Shown here piece by piece: positions 7,021 through 25,512 of a DNA stretch of 26,200 bases (position 1 is its first letter; each line of letters begins with the position of its first letter). Made by a program: the position numbers and the translations under genes. Location: the IMG/VR virus record IMGVR_UViG_3300044641_008512, positions 1 to 26,200 of that record; one strand, given 5' to 3'. The DNA comes from a virus. The notes under the pieces were generated by a model. That model was given only the letters and a program-made list of their open reading frames with translations. It was not told the DNA's origin and ran no database searches.

Positions 7021-7032
7021 TCGATCCCAACC

Positions 7033-7728
7033 ATGAACCTCATTCTTGCCTCTGCCCAGTATGTCGGTGAAGTGTTCACTGATAGTGGGCTGCGTTTTGT
7101 GCAACTGACTATCCCAGCAACTGGTAAAAACGCTGCGGATGTACCGATCTTTGTTGTGCCTAACAAAGCCGCAGGTGAAACATTCGATGCTTTTGCCCCA
7201 GGTTGTAGTCTTCTCGTGACTGGCCGACTTTATCCGAACCGGACCGACTACAAGATGTATGTGGTTCCCACTGCACCGCTTCAGGTGATTGCAAAGGAGG
7301 TGTCGATCAATCAAGTCAATCTTGCAGGTGGCGTTGGGTATATTGCAGAGCAAAAGATTGAGGACCTTTACACATTCTCATTGATGTGTAAGGCTCCGAG
7401 CCAGGCGCTCCTGAATTACTCGTGGCAGGACAGTATGGGATTTCGGATCGAGTGCTGGGGCGACGACGCTAAGCGGCTGAACAGCCTGCTGTACGTGGGT
7501 AGGCAGATGGCTCTAGCTGGTAGCCTTCGTTACAACACCTGGACAGCTCAAGATGGTTCTCCCCGATCAACCTACCAGGTTCGTGCTCGTTCGTCTCAGT
7601 ACTCTCTCTTTGGTAAGAATCAGAACCAGAATCAAAATGTATCGAATGATACAGATAAACCGGTTGATCGCGTTCCTGCAGGCGTGGTCAGCCCGGTGAC
7701 GGCAACCACGATCGATCCCCCCTTCTGA
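7033..7728 (+). CDS. Single-stranded DNA-binding (SSB-like) protein with two OB-fold-like halves
   Basis: A 231-residue protein with two beta-rich segments reminiscent of OB folds: about residues 1-90 (LLVTGRLYPNRTDYKMYVVP) and about 100-195 (IECWGDDAKRLNSLLYVGRQ, SLRYNTWTAQDGSPRSTYQV). A Gln/Asn-rich linker (FGKNQNQNQNVSN) leads to a C-terminus TTIDPPF, which resembles the acidic PF-ending tail by which bacterial SSB recruits partner proteins. It would coat single-stranded DNA during replication. It sits between dCMP deaminase and a strong terminator. The start ATG follows CCAACC with no Shine-Dalgarno. The SSB call rests on pattern and tail, not on a search. Confidence 0.75.
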   Translation: MNLILASAQYVGEVFTDSGLRFVQLTIPATGKNAADVPIFVVPNKAAGETFDAFAPGCSLLVTGRLYPNRTDYKMYVVPTAPLQVIAKEVSINQVNLAGGVGYIAEQKIEDLYTFSLMCKAPSQALLNYSWQDSMGFRIECWGDDAKRLNSLLYVGRQMALAGSLRYNTWTAQDGSPRSTYQVRARSSQYSLFGKNQNQNQNVSNDTDKPVDRVPAGVVSPVTATTIDPPF

Positions 7729-11208: not shown

Positions 11209-11805
11209 ATGGCTGACAAGCAAAGCTTTATTCAAATTGCTGAATCCATTCAACACATTTCTTTTCTTAAAGATTTTCCAAGTGTCAGTGAAGATGAGCG
11301 TGGTGAATTAGAAGAACACCTGAGGGAGCTTGCTTCCAGGCAAGAGTCTAAGTTCGATTCAATTATTGGATTGATTAAAAAATGTGATGCCTACATTGAG
11401 GCTTTGCAAAATGAAATGAATGAGATAAAAACTAATTTAGATGCTTGGAAAAAGAACAAAGATAAGATAACAAACATCATTAAGTTTGCATATCAACAGA
11501 ACCTAATTGACGGTGCTCCTACAGGTATCAAATATCAAGCAACCATCAAACGGGTCAAGCCCAGGGTCGTAGATAACTTTGGTATGTGGAGCGAAGACGA
11601 AGTTTCTGAATTTGGTTTGAAGAAGACAACAACGGTGACCCGAATCAAAGACGGTACCGTGGTTGACGTCAAGGAAGAAACCCTACCTGATAAAGATAGA
11701 TTGCGCCAGGCATTGGTTCAGGACCAGGGAGATGCCCCGCTGTCGTCCCAACTGGTCCCATCTGTAGCTTTTGTGTACGAGCGGAGAAAGCGACTTACAT
11801 CCTGA
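11209..11805 (+). CDS. Siphovirus Gp157-like protein
   Basis: A 198-residue protein. Residues about 25-100 form a long charged helix or coiled coil (ELEEHLRELASRQESKFDSI, EALQNEMNEIKTNLDAW), followed by a beta segment, GIKYQATIKRVKPRVV, and a conserved-looking tail. This layout and the middle segment match the siphovirus Gp157 family (Pfam), described in Streptococcus thermophilus phages and usually encoded with phage recombination genes. Here it follows the SWIM protein and ends the operon at a strong terminator. As in the upstream gene, the first half is AT-rich and the last third GC-richer. Confidence 0.78.
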   Translation: MADKQSFIQIAESIQHISFLKDFPSVSEDERGELEEHLRELASRQESKFDSIIGLIKKCDAYIEALQNEMNEIKTNLDAWKKNKDKITNIIKFAYQQNLIDGAPTGIKYQATIKRVKPRVVDNFGMWSEDEVSEFGLKKTTTVTRIKDGTVVDVKEETLPDKDRLRQALVQDQGDAPLSSQLVPSVAFVYERRKRLTS

Positions 11806-14327: not shown

Positions 14328-14516
14328 CTAGTGTGGAAAATTTAACCTTGCTTTATCACCACGCAACTCAAATGCTTTTGCGTCATATATTAAAGCGGCA
14401 GTAATTTCGTCATCAAAATAACCAAGATGCATTGCTTTCCCTTGATACGTAATCTGTACTTTCCATTTTTGAGTTAAAGAGCACTTTAAAACCTCAGCGA
14501 CTGATTTCTTCCCAAT
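14328..14516 (-). pseudogene. AP2-domain remnant of an HNH-type homing endonuclease
   Basis: Reading the minus strand from 14516 to the TAG at 14328 gives an open frame without a usable start, containing QKWKVQITYQGKAMHLGYFD followed by DEITAALIYDAKAFELRGDK and ARLNFP. This is an AP2 domain (W-x-V-x-I, HLG-x-F, AA-x-x-YD, G-x-x-A-x-LNFP), the DNA-binding module often found at the C-terminus of phage HNH homing endonucleases. The HNH part is missing. The fragment overlaps the last 23 bases of the virion gene at 14494 in another frame, and a TAG at 14517 closes the frame upstream. It is best read as what is left after loss of a homing endonuclease gene. Confidence 0.75.
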
Positions 14517-15828
14517 CTAAAGAAGCATAGATACTACCGCCGCCGTCGCTTGTAACAGCCAAGGTTAGTTCAAATGCTGTAGAAGTAAATGTGTCTCTTT
14601 CTAATTGAAACTTGAACAAAGCTTCTTTAAGAATATCAATGGGTTGCGATCCCTGATTAGATGAGTTGAGGTAACCTGAGGCTAAAGTTCGTCCTCCTGT
14701 AAAGCTAGTTCCTGTAATGTTATACTCCACAGCGGAATTAGCACCAGCGCTAACCCAGGTGCCTCCGGTTGTTGCCCCGCTTGCTATTACTTTCCAGTTA
14801 TAGTTAATCCCGTTGCCCGTACCAAGCACAGACAGGGCTGTAAGAATAATAATTGCATCAAGAAAATTAGGTGAAGACTTTAAACGAAGAGATAAAATTG
14901 GGTAATATGTTCCTGCTACTGATGTAGATCTTGGTGCCGTAATTGGAATATTTACAGCTTGCTGTAGGCCACTTAATTGATACCCGCCTTCTGAAATAAC
15001 AGTAGAGCAGATTTGTTTTAACGTGCTGTTGCTTGCTGTGGCTCCTGTATTCTCAATCTCATAACGCATCGGTAATGATGCCGTAGTGATATAAGTTGAT
15101 GTAATTAAGTTGGCGTGATGAAATTGATGGCAGAGAATAAACTTACCATCAATAACGAAACCTAGTCGGACCGTACCGACACCTAACCACTCAAAATCCA
15201 TCCACAGAATCTGAGCTTTGGTGATGTCTAAGGTCATCCCAGATGGGCCAGTACCGTTTAACTTGTCGTAATTCCAGGCACTCTGAGCAACTTTTGTTTC
15301 TACTAAGGCGCCACTGACTGAACTACGCTGAACAAAAGAAAGTGAATCCCCGCCAGTGCCATCCAGCTCCAAGTACACGCCGTTAGCTGCACCGTAGTAA
15401 CCAGCACGTTGCCGAAGGTTTGCCTTTGCTGGATTAAATACAAAGGTGGTCATCACCAAGAGACTTTTGCCTGGTTGATAACTAAATACTTTTGTCGTTT
15501 CCCGGTAAACCCTGGAGCCAGAAGTTGTCGTTACGTTTAAGGTTACTAGCCCCTGGTTGGCATCAAAGACCGCTGTGCCACCAGAAGCTGTTGATGTGTT
15601 CCACAGGTTGTTGTCTTTATAGCGGTGACTTGAGTCAAACAGCGTCATAGGGTTAGAGACGCGCAACCGACCAAAAGCGTCCAGTGCCGCAGACTTGTTT
15701 CCAGTGCCTGGGTCTGTGGTAACGCTGATCGGCTGACCAGTAATGGCAACATTCGTCGGCGCATCATTGTACGGCGACATCTTGATGACTTCGTATCTGT
15801 TGTGGTCGGTATCTATGATGGTTGCCAC
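14494..15828 (-). CDS. Virion structural protein (tail or appendage-like)
   Basis: A 444-residue protein rich in Thr, Ser, Gly and Asn with beta-sheet character throughout and no enzyme motif. The N-terminal DAFGRLRVSNPMTLFDSSHR, followed by YKDNNLW, recalls structural proteins of cyanophages and other marine phages, which I believe are virion components; this is memory, not search. It is on the minus strand, isolated among plus-strand genes, with an AP2 remnant at its 3' end and a GIY-YIG endonuclease at its 5' end. An inverted repeat (15845-15862) lies upstream of the start. Confidence 0.75.
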   Translation of the reverse strand: MATIIDTDHNRYEVIKMSPYNDAPTNVAITGQPISVTTDPGTGNKSAALDAFGRLRVSNPMTLFDSSHRYKDNNLWNTSTASGGTAVFDANQGLVTLNVTTTSGSRVYRETTKVFSYQPGKSLLVMTTFVFNPAKANLRQRAGYYGAANGVYLELDGTGGDSLSFVQRSSVSGALVETKVAQSAWNYDKLNGTGPSGMTLDITKAQILWMDFEWLGVGTVRLGFVIDGKFILCHQFHHANLITSTYITTASLPMRYEIENTGATASNSTLKQICSTVISEGGYQLSGLQQAVNIPITAPRSTSVAGTYYPILSLRLKSSPNFLDAIIILTALSVLGTGNGINYNWKVIASGATTGGTWVSAGANSAVEYNITGTSFTGGRTLASGYLNSSNQGSQPIDILKEALFKFQLERDTFTSTAFELTLAVTSDGGGSIYASLDWEEISR

Positions 15829-15880: not shown

Positions 15881-16636
15881 GTGCACCACTACGTTTACTA
15901 CAGCTATGAGGAGTGGGGGCGCGGCTACATTGGGGTGCGTTCTTGCAAATGCTTGCCAAAAGAAGACATAAAATATTTTGGCAGTTTTAAAGATAAGACA
16001 TTTAAACCAACTAAAAAAATTATTATTGAAGAGTTTACATCTAGAGAAGCGGCTTCTAATGCTGAAATTAGCCTTCACGCTTTTTTTAATGTTGTAGAAA
16101 ATTTAAACTTCGCAAATCGTGCAAAAAGTACAAGTACAGGTTTTACGCGCCTTGGGGCAAAAAACACAAAAGAGACAAACAAAAAAATTGCTTTAATTAA
16201 TAAAGGGAATAAATACTGTGTTGGTAGAAAAATATCAGAAGAGACTCGTGAAAAAATAAGTAAAGGTAACAAAGGCAAAAAAATTAGCGAAGAGCGTAAG
16301 CAAGCTTTGAGAAAAAGAATGTCAGGCAAAAATAATCCGACTTACGGTAAACCTCGCCCGCAAGCTGTCAAGGACAAAATAAGTGCTACTAAGAAAAAAA
16401 CATATGTTAAAGAAAACCACCCAATGTTTAATAAAACACACTCAAAAAAAACTAAAGAAAAAATAGCCGCTGCGCAAAAAAAGATAAATGTTCGTCTGAT
16501 GCATTGTGTGTCCGGTGAAATAGTAGAATTTAGTTCTCAACTGGAGGCTTCTAAAGCATTAAATCTCCACCAGGGCTCTGTTTCTAGCTTGTTATTAAAA
16601 AAACTAAAGACTACTGGAGGCTGGAAACTGGCTTAA
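15881..16636 (+). CDS. GIY-YIG homing endonuclease with NUMOD3 repeats and NUMOD1 domain
   Basis: A 251-residue endonuclease. The N-terminal GIY-YIG domain (about residues 1-85) has VYY (5-7), GRGYIGVR (Y16-G18, R20) and the catalytic Glu in NAEISLHAF (E62). The middle, ISEETREKISKGNKGKKISE and KNNPTYGKPRPQAVKDKISA, is a run of NUMOD3-type DNA-binding repeats. The last 45 residues (GEIVEFSSQLEASKALNL, then WKLA) match NUMOD1. It would cut DNA near its own insertion site and spread by homing. It starts with GTG and is much more A-rich than its neighbours, a sign of separate origin. Confidence 0.92.
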   Translation: MHHYVYYSYEEWGRGYIGVRSCKCLPKEDIKYFGSFKDKTFKPTKKIIIEEFTSREAASNAEISLHAFFNVVENLNFANRAKSTSTGFTRLGAKNTKETNKKIALINKGNKYCVGRKISEETREKISKGNKGKKISEERKQALRKRMSGKNNPTYGKPRPQAVKDKISATKKKTYVKENHPMFNKTHSKKTKEKIAAAQKKINVRLMHCVSGEIVEFSSQLEASKALNLHQGSVSSLLLKKLKTTGGWKLA

Positions 16637-18717: not shown

Positions 18718-21303
18718 GTGACCGTATCAGCACCAGAGCCTCAGCATCCCAGGAAGCACCTCAGCCCAGGGCAGATCGATCTTGGCTTGATCCCTCTGGA
18801 TTGGGCCTTGACGCCGTTGCGGGAGAAGCGCGCTTACGTCCCTGGATGGACCTCCCAGCCCTACTCCATCGATCAGATCCGTAAGGAGCTGGACGAGGGT
18901 CGCGCCACGGGTGTAGGCCTGCTGAGTGGCCAGTGGTCCAACGAAGGCGCACTGATCTGGGCTGATGTTGACGGTCCGGAAGCGATCCCTGCTCTAGAGG
19001 AGCTGGTTGGCGGTCCAATTGACGTCATCTTTCCGCCGACGCTGACCATTTCGTCGGGTAAGCCGGGCCGGATGCGGATGCTTTACAGCGTCCCTGCGAG
19101 CAAGATCCCGTTGCTCCCCGATAAGGCGACAATTAAGATCGGGATTCCGTCGTTTGAAATCCTGTTTCGCTCCCGTCAAGGGGCGATCATGGGCGTCCAC
19201 CCTGAAACAGACGGATATTTCACCACGCCGCACGGTGGTTTCGAGTTTGCTAAAAACCCACCCGAGATGCCGGAGTGGTTGTACGAAGCAATTAACCGTG
19301 CTTTTCCGACGAATAAGTACAGGAAGCCTGTTGTAACTGGTGTCGTCACTCAGCAGATCAACCTGCAGTACGAAGAAGGATCAAAATATCAACTGGAGGA
19401 AGCCACTGAAGAAGCTAGGTCTTACCTTCCTTATCTGAGTGTTGATCGGGCAACCGACTACGAAGAGTGGTTGGCTGTCGGCATGTCTCTGCACCAGGTC
19501 AGTGATGAGCTTCTTGATGACTGGGTAGCCTGGTCGTCCCAAGCTGAAAACTTTGATCCTGAGGCGTGTAACGATAAGTGGCGTTCGTTTGAACGGCTGC
19601 CTGGTGGTCCCAATCCAGGTAATGGACGTGGTATCCAGACGTTGCGCGCCAAGGCAAAGGAGGATGGGTACCTCGAACTTGGCGGGTACGTTGTTGAATC
19701 TCCGGAAGAGCTACTCCGTCAGGCCAAAGAGGTGTTCGACGACGCTGAAATGGGTGACATGCCGCCAATGGACACGTTGCATCGCGCCATGCGGGCGATG
19801 CTTGGCGATCCTGATGAGAACATGGAAGAGGAGGTTCAGCAAGGAGCTAACCGTGGTCGCCCCAGGACGCCACCGGCATCGGAGCTGGCGAACCTCGTCA
19901 CCGGAATGGTTAACGAGATCGGTTGGCGGTACGACCCGAAGTACGACACTTTCATGTTCTACCACCGCGATCGGGGGATCTGGAGGCGTGAAACCTATCC
20001 CCACGAGTTCCGTCACACCGTTCAAGATCTGTTTATCCGGGAGCGGGTCCCGACCCCCAGTGGATTTACGACACACCTGATCAACGACGTCGTTTCTTTG
20101 ACTCAGGCTTACATCGCTCAGCCTGACTGGCACGACGACGATGACCTGCTGTCCTTCCGCAACGGGGTTCTGGAAGTCAGTACTGGTGAGTTTCTTGATC
20201 ACGATCCTGAAAACTATCTGATCTGGGGACTTGATTTTAATTATGATCCTCAGGCAGATCCAGGACCGATCATTGATTGGTTGCGCCGAACTCAGTACGG
20301 TGATGATGGCCGTGTTCAGGTGCTCAGGGCCTGGTTGAGAGCCTGTCTTGTCGGTCACGGCCACGAAATTCAGCGGTTTCTGGAGATCATTGGACCCGGC
20401 GGGCGGGGAAAATCCACCTTCGCAAACCTGTGTTGCGCCCTGGTTGGCAGCGGCAACTACGCCAGCACCACCCTCAACCAGTTGGAGCAGAGTCGCTTTG
20501 AGATTGCATCGATCAAGGGCAAACGGTTGACGCTGATCAATGACTCGGAACGTTACGGCGGTTCTGCTCAGATCTTTAAGGCGCTGACAGGCGGAGACAA
20601 CCTCCGCTTTGAGGAGAAGAATAAGAACGTAGGTGAGCCCTTCGTCTACACCGGTATGGTCATGGTTTGCGCCAACGAACCGATCCAGACGACTGACAAC
20701 ACTTCAGGTCTGACGCGTCGTCGCCTGACCCTTGAGTTCAATCGTCCCCTGTACGACAAGAACTCGGAAGCTAAGGAGATGATTAAGCTCGATAACGGTA
20801 TCGTAAAGGGCTTATGGAAGAATTATTTACCCGGCTTAGTTAACTGGGTTTTGGAGATGAGCCATAAAGAAATGAAGGAGTATCTTCTTGATACCTATGA
20901 AAAAGTTCCGTCCCTCACCAGGGTCAGGAATGAGATTCTGCTGAACAGCAATAACTTGGTTGAGTGGCTGCAGTCAGAAATTGTTTACGCAGTCGACCAC
21001 GTTGCTTCTGTCGGTAAGAAAATTCCAGCCGCTAAGGATGCCCCAGAGCGTTACAACAACAGTAGCCATCACCTTTATGCCAGCTACTGCTCCTACGCAG
21101 AGGACACCGGCAGCAAGCCCGTGGGTCAGAAGCGATTCATTGCGTTGCTTCTGGACTGCTGCACCAACCAGCTTGGCCTGAAGGACATCCGTCAATTCAG
21201 CAAGTACGGTAAGCCTTTTATCAAAGGACTTGCGGTCAGGGCCAGTGATCAGAAGTTCCAGTCCTACCCCACGATCCTGCCGGAAGGTAAAATCGAATCT
21301 TAA
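18718..21303 (+). CDS. Primase-helicase (AEP prim-pol, PriCT and P4/D5-type SF3 helicase)
   Basis: An 861-residue replication protein. The N-terminal prim-pol-like domain (about 20-210) has VGLLSGQWS and LIWADVDG (D83, D85, the likely catalytic pair), then FEILFRSRQGAIMGVHPETD. A PriCT-like segment follows (about 230-310: DYEEWLAVGMSLHQVSDE, GRGIQTLRAKAKEDGY). The helicase has Walker A GPGGRGKST (559-567), Walker B-like LTLINDSE with D609, and sensor-1 MVMVCANEP with N653, as in P4/D5 family SF3 helicases. It would prime and unwind at the origin. It starts at GTG. Its stop overlaps the end of a minus-strand gene. Confidence 0.95.
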   Translation: MTVSAPEPQHPRKHLSPGQIDLGLIPLDWALTPLREKRAYVPGWTSQPYSIDQIRKELDEGRATGVGLLSGQWSNEGALIWADVDGPEAIPALEELVGGPIDVIFPPTLTISSGKPGRMRMLYSVPASKIPLLPDKATIKIGIPSFEILFRSRQGAIMGVHPETDGYFTTPHGGFEFAKNPPEMPEWLYEAINRAFPTNKYRKPVVTGVVTQQINLQYEEGSKYQLEEATEEARSYLPYLSVDRATDYEEWLAVGMSLHQVSDELLDDWVAWSSQAENFDPEACNDKWRSFERLPGGPNPGNGRGIQTLRAKAKEDGYLELGGYVVESPEELLRQAKEVFDDAEMGDMPPMDTLHRAMRAMLGDPDENMEEEVQQGANRGRPRTPPASELANLVTGMVNEIGWRYDPKYDTFMFYHRDRGIWRRETYPHEFRHTVQDLFIRERVPTPSGFTTHLINDVVSLTQAYIAQPDWHDDDDLLSFRNGVLEVSTGEFLDHDPENYLIWGLDFNYDPQADPGPIIDWLRRTQYGDDGRVQVLRAWLRACLVGHGHEIQRFLEIIGPGGRGKSTFANLCCALVGSGNYASTTLNQLEQSRFEIASIKGKRLTLINDSERYGGSAQIFKALTGGDNLRFEEKNKNVGEPFVYTGMVMVCANEPIQTTDNTSGLTRRRLTLEFNRPLYDKNSEAKEMIKLDNGIVKGLWKNYLPGLVNWVLEMSHKEMKEYLLDTYEKVPSLTRVRNEILLNSNNLVEWLQSEIVYAVDHVASVGKKIPAAKDAPERYNNSSHHLYASYCSYAEDTGSKPVGQKRFIALLLDCCTNQLGLKDIRQFSKYGKPFIKGLAVRASDQKFQSYPTILPEGKIES

Positions 21304-23408: not shown

Positions 23409-23594
23409 GTGCAAGTTATTCAAACCTTTCCCAATGGAACGACTATTGAATTCGGTGAAGATTCATGGGGTCACCAGATACACCGAGTCTGTTCCGCCAC
23501 CGGTGCGATGTGTCGGTTAACTGAGCCATATCATTGCGCTTTGGTTTATGCCCAGCAGTACGAAGAGTTTTATTCAGTTAAAGGTCCGAAGTAG
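23409..23594 (+). CDS. Hypothetical small protein
   Basis: A 61-residue protein, MQVIQTFPNGTTIEFGEDSW then GHQIHRVCSATGAMCRLTEP, with beta character in its N-terminal half and Tyr-rich YAQQYEEFYSVKG at the end. It starts with GTG. The family is unknown. It is divergent from the minus-strand block and is closed by the repeat-built hairpin with a T run at 23624-23678. Confidence 0.6.
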   Translation: MQVIQTFPNGTTIEFGEDSWGHQIHRVCSATGAMCRLTEPYHCALVYAQQYEEFYSVKGPK

Positions 23595-23623: not shown

Positions 23624-23650
23624 AATGTACGGGCAGAGTATGAACACACT
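23624..23650 (+). repeat. Direct copy of the right half of unit 1
   Basis: The 27 bases 23624-23650 match 23689-23715 except for GAG in place of CTG (two differences). Starts are 65 bases apart. It forms the left arm of the terminator-like hairpin. Confidence 0.8.
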
Positions 23651-23678
23651 GTGTTTGTACAGTGTCCGTACATTTTTT
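23624..23678 (+). terminator. Long hairpin plus T run built from the repeats
   Basis: AATGTACGG (23624-23632) pairs with CCGTACATT (23666-23674); further in, GTATGAACACA pairs with TGTGTTTGTAC with G-T pairs, leaving a small loop. The stem is followed by TTTTTT (23673-23678). It can terminate the transcript of the gene ending at 23594. Its left arm is the third copy of the half-site and its right arm is the left half of unit 1. Confidence 0.6.
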
Positions 23679-23714
23679 GGTCTTGGCGAATGTACGGGCA
23701 CTGTATGAACACAC
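23649..23714. repeat. Palindromic repeat unit 1
   Basis: TACAGTGTCCGTACATT (23658-23674), a 14-base spacer, then AATGTACGGGCACTGTA (23689-23705), an inverted repeat with one mismatch in 17. The flanks GTGTTTG and TGAACAC extend the symmetry. The spacer TTTTGGTCTTGGCG shares CTTGG with that of unit 2. Confidence 0.8.
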
Positions 23715-23846
23715 TTGAGTTTCTGTTATTTTTTTCCCTAAATAAGCTCTTAATTAAAAATTAGAGGCCAACATGCAAGAAAACGCATAAACCCTTGTTG
23801 GGGCAAAAGGGGGAGATCCCTGTCGTGGACAGGGAAAAAATGTACT

Positions 23847-23864
23847 GCCAAAAACGGCAAAAAA
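23847..23864 (+). repeat. Left arm of an 18-bp perfect inverted repeat
   Basis: GCCAAAAACGGCAAAAAA. Its exact reverse complement is at 23990-24007, with 125 bases between. The pair encloses palindromic unit 2. Each arm also forms a local hairpin. Confidence 0.85.
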
Positions 23865-23894
23865 TATGGCCTTTTCACTTAGGCAGTAAATGTG

Positions 23895-23959
23895 AGGGTT
23901 AGTACAGTGACCGTACATTCTTGGAGGGGCAGGAAATGTACGCACACTGTATGAACCCT
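23895..23959. repeat. Palindromic repeat unit 2
   Basis: TACAGTGACCGTACATT (23903-23919), 15 bases, AATGTACGCACACTGTA (23935-23951): 15 of 17 positions agree when inverted. AGGGTT before and AACCCT after extend the dyad to 25 bases a side. It is a second version of unit 1. Confidence 0.8.
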
Positions 23960-23989
23960 TAAAATTACTTTATAAGTAAAAAAGGCGTT

Positions 23990-24007
23990 TTTTTTGCCGT
24001 TTTTGGC
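23990..24007 (-). repeat. Right arm of the 18-bp perfect inverted repeat
   Basis: TTTTTTGCCGTTTTTGGC, exact inverse of 23847-23864. It lies just upstream of the promoter at 24022, and its T-rich GGC(8T)GCC core could act as a terminator for read-through from the left. Confidence 0.85.
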
Positions 24008-24021
24008 TGTTGAAAAATTCC

Positions 24022-24050
24022 TTGACGCCGCAAGGGATCTCAGCTAAAGT
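24022..24050 (+). promoter_or_regulatory. Sigma70-like promoter of the HNH/HTH gene
   Basis: TTGACG (24022-24027), 17-base spacer, TAAAGT (24045-24050). The -35 is inside a CCTTG/CAAGG hairpin with the loop ACGCCG. Start of transcription would be near 24057, with a leader of about 18 bases before the GTG at 24075. Confidence 0.7.
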
Positions 24051-24074
24051 CCGCTTGAACCCTTTGCGCCCCCT

Positions 24075-25232
24075 GTGAAACCGATTCAGTTCTTCTTTGA
24101 AAGCGGCCTATCCGCCATCGATGCCGTCCTCTTTTCGACGGCTTTCCAGGGGTACCTCCAGTCCGTGGGGCCGGACCGGTGTTGGTGCATGAAGAAAAAC
24201 TCGCTCAGCGTTTTTGCGGGGTTCAGCGTTGCCAGCCCCGTAAAGACTCGTTACAGGGATCTGGATGCCCGCCCCTTAGCCCTGGCTCTCGCTGGTGTGT
24301 TCCTGACAGACGACGACAATCAGGTCATTGTTCGCAGGAATTGCTGCAAGTCCCCGCACTGCATCAACCCAGCGCACTACTACTACGGCACCAGGGCTGA
24401 CGTGGCGATGGAGGCTCAAAGGAAAAAGCGAAGCAAAAAGGGAGTTCCCGCTGTGATGACGCCTGAGCTGGCAGATTCACTTCGTAGGGACCGCTCCAGG
24501 GGAGAGTCAATCACTGCCTTGGCGGTTAAATACAGACTCCAGTACCACGTCGCTCGCCGCATCTGCAGCGAAAACACCTACAGAAGTAGTGGAGATGTAA
24601 ACTTCAATGAAGATTCATTACAAGCCCTGTGGCTCAGGACATCTCAAAACTGCATTGAGATCTGCAAAGAAAATCCTGATGCCACCAGGGAACTCAACAT
24701 TTCGTATCACGTGACTCAGCGACTGACCTGCCCCTGGCACCAGAAAAAAAGCGAGGCCCACAAAGGGAACTTCGGCTTGATGGGAGAGTGCCTCGACTGC
24801 ATGGAAGAGCTGAAAAAAGGCCGCTGCTCCGTGGACGTAACCCAGTTCGACATGGACTGGTACTGGCAGGTGAAACGGTTCTGGGAGCAGGTGGACATCC
24901 AAGGCCCAGACGACTGCTGGACGTGGCGGGGACCCACCAGGCGGAACGGCAATGAGTCCGTTGCGTACTTCCCCTCCCCTATGCATTCAGGGACCGCTCA
25001 GTCCGCCTCCAGGGTTGCCTTCTGGTTGAGCCGGGGCTATACAGGTAAGTATCGGATCTTCTCCAGGGGTGACTGCGCTAAGTTTTGCTGTAATCCGCTG
25101 CATCTGAGCCTGGCGGAAACAGTTGAATGCAAGGCTCCAAAAGAAATTTCTACCATTCGCCTGAACCACTCCAATGTCTTCCAGCACTACAAACAAACCG
25201 ACGAGCAAAACAAGCCAGGTTCTGCCATCTAA
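24075..25232 (+). CDS. Large protein with two HNH-like domains flanking HTH and zinc segments
   Basis: A 385-residue protein. An HNH-like domain near the N-terminus (about 30-105) has VGPDRCW and CCKSPHCINPAH (C90/C91, C96, N98, P99, H101); a second (about 275-350) has QGPDDCWTW and CAKFCCNPLHL (C334, C338/C339, N340, P341, H343). Between them are two HTH-like segments (ITALAVKYRLQYHVARRI at about 146-163, and LNISYHVTQRL at about 207-217) and a zinc-ribbon-like CPWH...CLDC (219-242). Both HNH motifs lack the first His, so nuclease activity is uncertain and DNA binding alone is possible. It starts with GTG behind a clear promoter and next to the repeat region. It may be a homing nuclease, regulator or initiator. 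Confidence 0.8.
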   Translation: MKPIQFFFESGLSAIDAVLFSTAFQGYLQSVGPDRCWCMKKNSLSVFAGFSVASPVKTRYRDLDARPLALALAGVFLTDDDNQVIVRRNCCKSPHCINPAHYYYGTRADVAMEAQRKKRSKKGVPAVMTPELADSLRRDRSRGESITALAVKYRLQYHVARRICSENTYRSSGDVNFNEDSLQALWLRTSQNCIEICKENPDATRELNISYHVTQRLTCPWHQKKSEAHKGNFGLMGECLDCMEELKKGRCSVDVTQFDMDWYWQVKRFWEQVDIQGPDDCWTWRGPTRRNGNESVAYFPSPMHSGTAQSASRVAFWLSRGYTGKYRIFSRGDCAKFCCNPLHLSLAETVECKAPKEISTIRLNHSNVFQHYKQTDEQNKPGSAI

Positions 25233-25512
25233 TTATCACCTGAAAGATAAAAAGTATCTGGGCCATGTTCAGATTGGTCCTGATAACTATTACACAGAAC
25301 ATTACGATTCGAAACAAGAAGCAGCCCTCGAACTCCGTTGCCTTGAGAAGCGTTTAAGCTATGAAGTAGTTGAGACGATGGAGAGCGAAGGCTTTTATCC
25401 TGAACGCGCTATAATTATGGAACAAAAATATCAGGAATCCGGTCGCACAAACGGTTTGTACACCGGATTAAATACAGAAGATGGCGCGGTTTCTATCAAC
25501 AATCCCGGATAA
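25174..25512 (+). CDS. Hypothetical small protein
   Basis: A 112-residue protein. The first 20 residues are Ser/Thr-rich (MSSSTTNKPTSKTSQVLPSN) and encoded by the end of the HNH/HTH gene in another frame; the rest (YLGHVQIGPDNYYTEHYDSK, then KRLSYEVVETMESEGFYPER) looks like a small alpha-beta domain. The family is unknown. The start ATG at 25174 gives a 59-base overlap; a later start cannot be excluded. It overlaps the next gene by 32 bases. Confidence 0.65.
   Translation: MSSSTTNKPTSKTSQVLPSNYHLKDKKYLGHVQIGPDNYYTEHYDSKQEAALELRCLEKRLSYEVVETMESEGFYPERAIIMEQKYQESGRTNGLYTGLNTEDGAVSINNPG

Follow-up and report, generated by a model that had tools for sequence, protein, structure and literature searches.

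A 385-aa protein encoded in a 26.2-kb virus record (the whole analyzed stretch, hereafter called the window) is, judged from its residues, very probably a nuclease-dead DNA-binding protein, because the zinc ligands of its two HNH modules are invariant whereas the catalytic histidine and metal-binding asparagine are gone from both. Directly upstream of its gene lies a giant nested dyad that accompanies the gene among its full-length relatives. The best explanation we can offer, held tentatively and falling just short of an even chance, is that this HNH-built dyad binder would serve as an iteron-type replication-initiation module and as an autoregulator.

Gene family and genome setting

The gene and its two small neighbors are located as follows.

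24075..25232, + strand: gene for the putatively nuclease-dead double-HNH protein (GTG start, 385 aa), defined from its family and alignments
25174..25512, + strand: 112-aa ORF (ORF112) in a different frame, overlapping the gene at its 3′ end
23409..23594, + strand: 61-aa ORF (ORF61) upstream of the half-site array; at least 40 of 70 loci conserve it

The ORF picked out by an earlier sequence-only reading of this DNA is real. Full-length relatives with 34 to 75% identity are present in at least 80 IMG/VR viral contigs, and no cellular relative was recovered when 84,980 bacterial and archaeal genomes were scanned. Except for Synechococcus phage S-EIV1, the viral records are metagenomic and may be fragments, and the homologue sets of our separate scans overlap. 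The family is an uncharacterized one carried by an S-EIV1-like cyanophage lineage. The Prim-Pol/D5 primase-helicase of the window (18718–21303) shares 36% identity, over 98% of its length, with that of S-EIV1, which is the sole phage record matching it over most of the query, and the primases that accompany relatives of the 385-aa gene are 62 to 88% identical to the window primase. To the left of the gene lies a replication set comprising thymidylate synthase, DNA polymerase A, SSB, an exonuclease, and the primase-helicase. The distribution of the gene is single-copy, syntenic, stable, and vertical-looking.

ORF112 is found downstream of the gene in at least 43 of 79 loci and is probably a translationally coupled partner. 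An AP2-like fold considered for its product received no Pfam support; the PHROG matches of ORF112 are weak and confined to HNH families, and no DNA-binding fold was recognized.

Several other genes of the window were noted in passing. A homing-endonuclease-like protein with four NUMOD3 motifs (PF07460, 4.7e-14) is encoded at 15881–16636, and a virion structural protein (phrog_1645, 1.7e-146; 62–67% identity to HMO-2011 and cyanomyovirus proteins) is encoded at 14494–15828 on the opposite strand, inside the replication gene set. Weak matches were seen to an anti-restriction protein family (762–1724; phrog_7245, 3.4e-07) and to a Mu Gam-like end-protection protein (11209–11805; phrog_253, 1.9e-04).

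Both HNH modules retain their zinc ligands and lack catalytic residues

24147..24428, + strand: HNH1 (residues 25–118), zinc ligands kept, catalytic His (position −12) and Asn (position +9) lost
24825..25130, + strand: HNH2 (residues 251–352), zinc ligands kept, His and Asn lost

Residue conservation was counted in an alignment of 68 relatives. The two CxNPxH modules that had been read from the sequence are both present, and their residues (C91, C96, N98, P99, and H101 in HNH1; C334, C338, C339, N340, P341, and H343 in HNH2) are each invariant in all 68 sequences. Also borne out is the claim that both motifs lack the first histidine of the canonical RHxC....CxNPxH pattern. Position −12, counted from the CxNPxH histidine, is S, A, or G in HNH1, where histidine occurs once among the 68, and K, R, Q, N, or G in HNH2, where it never occurs. 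Position +9 is valine in 67 of 68 HNH1 modules, with no asparagine, and is variable in HNH2, with a single asparagine. We take the I-PpoI counterparts of these two positions to be H98 and N119, respectively. In an alignment with active-type relatives, histidine occupies position −12 of annotated phage HNH nucleases, phiHAO78-1 gp34 among them. The S-EIV1-type homologues have arginine at this position of their single HNH.

The CxNPxH zinc/treble-clef motif and matching HNH profiles place the protein in the HNH/His-Me finger fold, and BFVD matches to phage HNH proteins reach E values of 1e-5. The signature of an active HNH nuclease or homing endonuclease, His at −12 and Asn at +9, was not found in the 68 relatives. 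That a scaffold is strictly conserved throughout a diverse family from which catalysis has been lost speaks for a role, in DNA binding or in structure, that has been retained.

The near-symmetric domain order had been taken to suggest internal duplication, a view that gained no support. A comparison of HNH1 with HNH2 by hhalign aligned only the eight columns of the shared motif, and their best PHROG families differ (phrog_6254 for HNH1 versus phrog_1872, phrog_826, and phrog_3593 for HNH2). On these grounds, duplication of the halves was rejected in favor of a fusion of two HNH lineages.

One supported HTH and an invariant zinc module lie between the HNH modules

24450..24599, + strand: HTH (residues 126–175), from the AlphaFold2 model and VIA matches
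24717..24824, + strand: zinc module (residues 215–250), C219PWH...H229KGNFGLMGECLDC242, from the alignment

The zinc-ribbon-like CPWH...CLDC segment proposed earlier is indeed a conserved module: the pattern C219-P-W-H222...H229...C239-L-D-C242 is invariant in 68 of 68 relatives, except for H222 (62 of 68). An AlphaFold2 model of the full protein (mean pLDDT 79.5, pTM 0.49) contains HNH1, the HTH at residues 126 to 175, and a C-terminal HNH domain. In VIA-align comparisons, residues 1 to 178 match I-PpoI at a Z of about 5, the HTH matches IstA, Pax5, Hin, and KorB at Z 5–7, and residues 217 to 351 match SMAD3-MH1 and NFI at Z 4.6–4.9. Structure prediction bears out the HNH modules and one of the two HTH-like segments proposed earlier. 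Only residues 126 to 175 adopt a compact tri-helical fold. The second candidate HTH was rejected, as residues 176 to 215 are modeled as two long helices, and the YHV likeness extends over 10 columns (hhalign probability 44%).

When the C-terminal half (zinc module plus HNH2) was modeled alone, the pTM was 0.80, and its structural matches included NFI and SMAD-MH1 chains in the first 30 listed, followed by I-PpoI. The similarity to NFI and SMAD-MH1 is weak (VIA Z 3.7–4.7 over 79–105 residues, rmsd 3–5 Å), and with Foldseek alone it is not significant (E 0.39). As modeled, this half weakly resembles NFI and MH1, which is a lead on fold class and not on membership. A PDB profile search with the protein family returned nothing significant.

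A nested dyad with repeated half-sites is conserved with the gene

23785..24070, no strand: nested imperfect dyad of about 285 to 290 bp, centered at about 23929, about −146 from the start codon
23893..23918, − strand: inner half-site of the left arm, ATGTACGGTCACTGTACTAACCCTCA
23936..23961, + strand: inner half-site of the right arm, ATGTACGCACACTGTATGAACCCTTA, at −130 to −143, a position conserved in 37 of 37 relatives
23625..23715, no strand: distal cluster of three half-sites, at 23625 (+), 23648 (−), and 23690 (+)
24022..24050, + strand: sigma70-like promoter, TTGACG-17-TAAAGT, similarly placed in most relatives

Both the upstream palindrome array and the gene's own promoter that the sequence-only reading described are present, at 23625–24070 and 24022–24050, respectively. 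In a whole-genome scan of minimum free energy, the element ranked first for the window, G001, and G004 but not in A+T-rich genomes, and a strand-neutral dyad score was used instead. By this score, no dyad of the window is stronger (z 11), and the upstream dyad ranks first in 13 of 15 genomes or contigs, S-EIV1 among them. Most dyad centers fall between −129 and −164 relative to the start codon; that of S-EIV1 is at −198, and the top peak of G008 is at −252. Weak dyads occur in two full-length lineages (L003/L008 and L014/L016, corresponding to G003 and G006).

The half-sites conform to the consensus TACRGTCA-N6/7-TAACC. One is found at the inner right-arm position in every one of the 37 non-redundant loci, scoring above the 95% control in 35 of them, and the pattern is enriched about 12-fold upstream of the gene (66 occurrences in the 24 kb there, against 94 in the other 421 kb). 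Searches of single genomes for further copies relied on genome-specific half-site matrices. All five copies found in the 26.2 kb of the window fall within the array, and no copy was found outside the array in the 75.9-kb G001, the one relative genome scanned fully. S-EIV1 has three copies plus a weaker one 200 bp away. Many relatives carry a distal pair or cluster of half-sites at about −350 to −450. The promoter, which lies inside the right arm of the dyad, starts near −50 in most relatives, where its mean match score is 9.6 versus 7.7 in shuffles. The array occupies a divergent intergenic region, in which a search for a DNA-unwinding element gave modest and not decisive A+T peaks at −130 to −100 and at −330.

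The proposed co-occurrence of the gene with the half-site array in other phages is evident in all 37 non-redundant full-length relatives. Homologues lacking the repeats would have counted against it: no full-length homologue is clearly without a dyad or half-site, but the short homologues of L219 and L220 have no adjacent dyad. Only the zinc and HNH2 half (about 225 aa) is encoded by S-EIV1 and eight further contigs, and six of eight S-EIV1-type contigs have a strong dyad, of different sequence, upstream of this short homologue.

Three observations concern individual loci. In L219/L220 (G022 contig, 24500–25050, L225), what stands in place of the dyad, upstream of the short homologue, resembles a portion of an HNH-type protein and may be an insertion. 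In L189, the homologue's reading frame is apparently broken at about 1950–2280 (a frameshift or an assembly error), and the array is intact upstream of the true start. In S-EIV1 (L082:7030–7710, KJ410740, minus strand), the homologue is annotated as a 146-aa hypothetical protein (7027–7467) along with two spurious plus-strand ORFs; the conserved frame of about 225 aa is backed by the eight further contigs.

The protein is a candidate binder of the dyad

Because of their co-conservation and adjacency, the uniqueness of the site, and the domain composition of the protein, we consider it fairly likely that the 385-aa protein binds the half-sites. This agrees with the earlier nomination of the protein as the best candidate, which gains support from the 37 co-conserved loci, the confinement of the sites in G001, and the pattern of a kept scaffold and lost catalysis. 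The suggestion made there that the protein can hold two DNA sites is an inference. With primase divergence controlled, half-site divergence correlates with that of the HTH and HNH1 (partial r 0.42 and 0.31, p 0.001), and partial r is about 0 for the zinc module and for the equally fast C-terminal tail. The corresponding values for the neighboring ORF112 are 0.29 to 0.32, and therefore covariation of the half-site with the HTH is not specific. It may be explained by linkage, and as a sign of binding it is only suggestive.

Proposed function and alternative explanations

In the mechanism that we favor, two unrelated HNH (His-Me finger) modules and an HTH would have been assembled into a nuclease-dead, sequence-specific DNA-binding protein. 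This protein would bind the TACRGTCA-N6/7-TAACC half-sites of the nested dyad, 60 to 450 bp upstream of its own start codon, and dyad and protein together would form the iteron-type replication-initiation module of S-EIV1-like phages. The protein would also autoregulate the promoter inside the right arm. For autoregulation, which that promoter location makes plausible, we judge the chances to be evenly balanced; that the dyad is a replication origin is a possibility we regard with somewhat more doubt. As in iteron modules, repeated half-sites adjoin the initiator-candidate gene and are not found elsewhere in the scanned genome, and the gene shares a genome segment with those for the Prim-Pol/D5 helicase, DNA polymerase A, SSB, and exonuclease. 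GC/AT skew, used as an origin test, follows gene direction, marked no origin, and argues neither way.

The chief competing explanation is that the protein acts purely as a transcriptional autoregulator of its own promoter, perhaps also controlling the leftward genes, and takes no part in replication. The conserved sigma70-like promoter within the right arm, the divergent intergenic setting, and a further half-site of S-EIV1 (7710, minus strand) located just downstream of a TATAAT box are all consistent with this explanation. However, in the marine family about 65 bp separate the conserved inner half-sites from the −35 box downstream of them, the site cluster (two clusters spanning up to about 450 bp) far exceeds usual operators, and the site occurs at no other G001 promoter. 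This spacing, the large array present once per genome where tested, and the replication genes nearby are more like an iteron origin than an operator, and we regard a purely regulatory role as unlikely, though the strongest of the competing accounts. Less probable again is that the HNH gene is a mere neighbor of a dyad that serves ORF112, ORF61, the phage D5 helicase, or a host protein. In favor of this, ORF112 is conserved nearby and diverges with the half-site to about the same degree, and in L219/L220 the short homologue persists with no dyad beside it; against it stand the location of the dyad directly 5′ of the HNH gene in all full-length relatives tested, the same location of a different dyad sequence in S-EIV1-type phages, and the lack of a recognized DNA-binding fold in ORF112.

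The very stable fold of the dyad (window z −9.7) raises the question of whether it encodes a structured leader or non-coding RNA, such that the protein binds RNA or binds nothing there. Mismatched oppositions that would form G-U pairs are about as frequent on the sense strand as on the antisense strand (259 versus 242, counted as GT versus AC across the 37 loci), without the excess on one strand expected of a structured RNA, and neither strand consistently has the better folding energy (20 of 37 loci). Therefore, the symmetry appears to be at the level of DNA, which favors its maintenance for DNA binding or DNA structure. Moreover, the dyad matches no Rfam family at the gathering threshold, permissive matches being miRNA hairpin models only, and the promoter inside the 3′ arm means that the hairpin would be absent from the gene's own mRNA. 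An RNA element is thus very improbable and was rejected on the strand symmetry and the Rfam result. Even less credence is due to an active homing endonuclease or a freestanding mobile HNH gene: sequence relatives are annotated as HNH endonucleases and the same phage has homing-type HNH and NUMOD genes, but catalytic His and Asn are absent from both domains in essentially all 68 relatives, and the gene's distribution is that of a stable, vertically inherited-looking locus.

Comparison with known systems

The 385-aa protein shares its fold class and motif spacing with phage HNH endonucleases (PHROG 1872, 826, 3593, and 6254). Its HNH1-HTH order is similar to that of Escherichia phage phiHAO78-1 gp34, and Mycobacterium phage Mori gp53 is closest to HNH2. 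Unlike these enzymes, it has lost His and Asn, carries two HNH modules per chain and an extra invariant zinc module, and is associated with a fixed dyad. These features suggest that former nucleases were repurposed as a DNA-binding protein with control over virus replication or over its own gene.

An iteron-based precedent is offered by PLE, whose RepA binds semi-palindromic iterons of ~30 bp in an intergenic origin, whose initiator DNA-binding domain covaries with its iterons, and whose RepA_N DNA-binding domain is common to RepA and the ICP1 nuclease Odn (PMC8263062). The likeness lies in an initiator paired with an iteron array, the origin here being only proposed. The systems differ in that RepA_N is not an HNH domain and Odn is an active nuclease.

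The nearest cultured relative is S-EIV1 (KJ410740), which shares the homologue of the C-terminal half and the upstream dyad; its homologue lacks HNH1 and the HTH, and its half-site sequence differs (ATCTTACATATCCAC). If the proposal is correct, it provides the first candidate origin or regulator module, with exact site and position, for S-EIV1-like cyanophages, which are widespread in metagenomes and for which we found one cultured relative.

In eukaryotes, the DNA-binding domains of SMAD MH1 and NFI are of the same fold class, give the C-terminal half its best PDB matches, and can be regarded as work-alikes. Grishin 2001 (as cited in PMC4999995) described SMAD MH1 as a degraded homing endonuclease. 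The phage protein has no sequence-level homology to these domains and differs from them in having two such modules plus an HTH. Should our proposal hold, it would be a phage parallel to animal SMAD MH1, in which HNH catalysis was lost, the zinc scaffold was kept, and a regulatory or initiator role was gained. More speculatively than any single element of the mechanism above, a phage replication initiator may consist of two nuclease-dead HNH modules, one of them with the fold of the eukaryotic NFI/SMAD DNA-binding domains, and may use as its origin a giant nested dyad that a globally abundant cyanophage lineage has conserved, which would represent an independent exaptation of homing-nuclease folds as a sequence-specific initiator.
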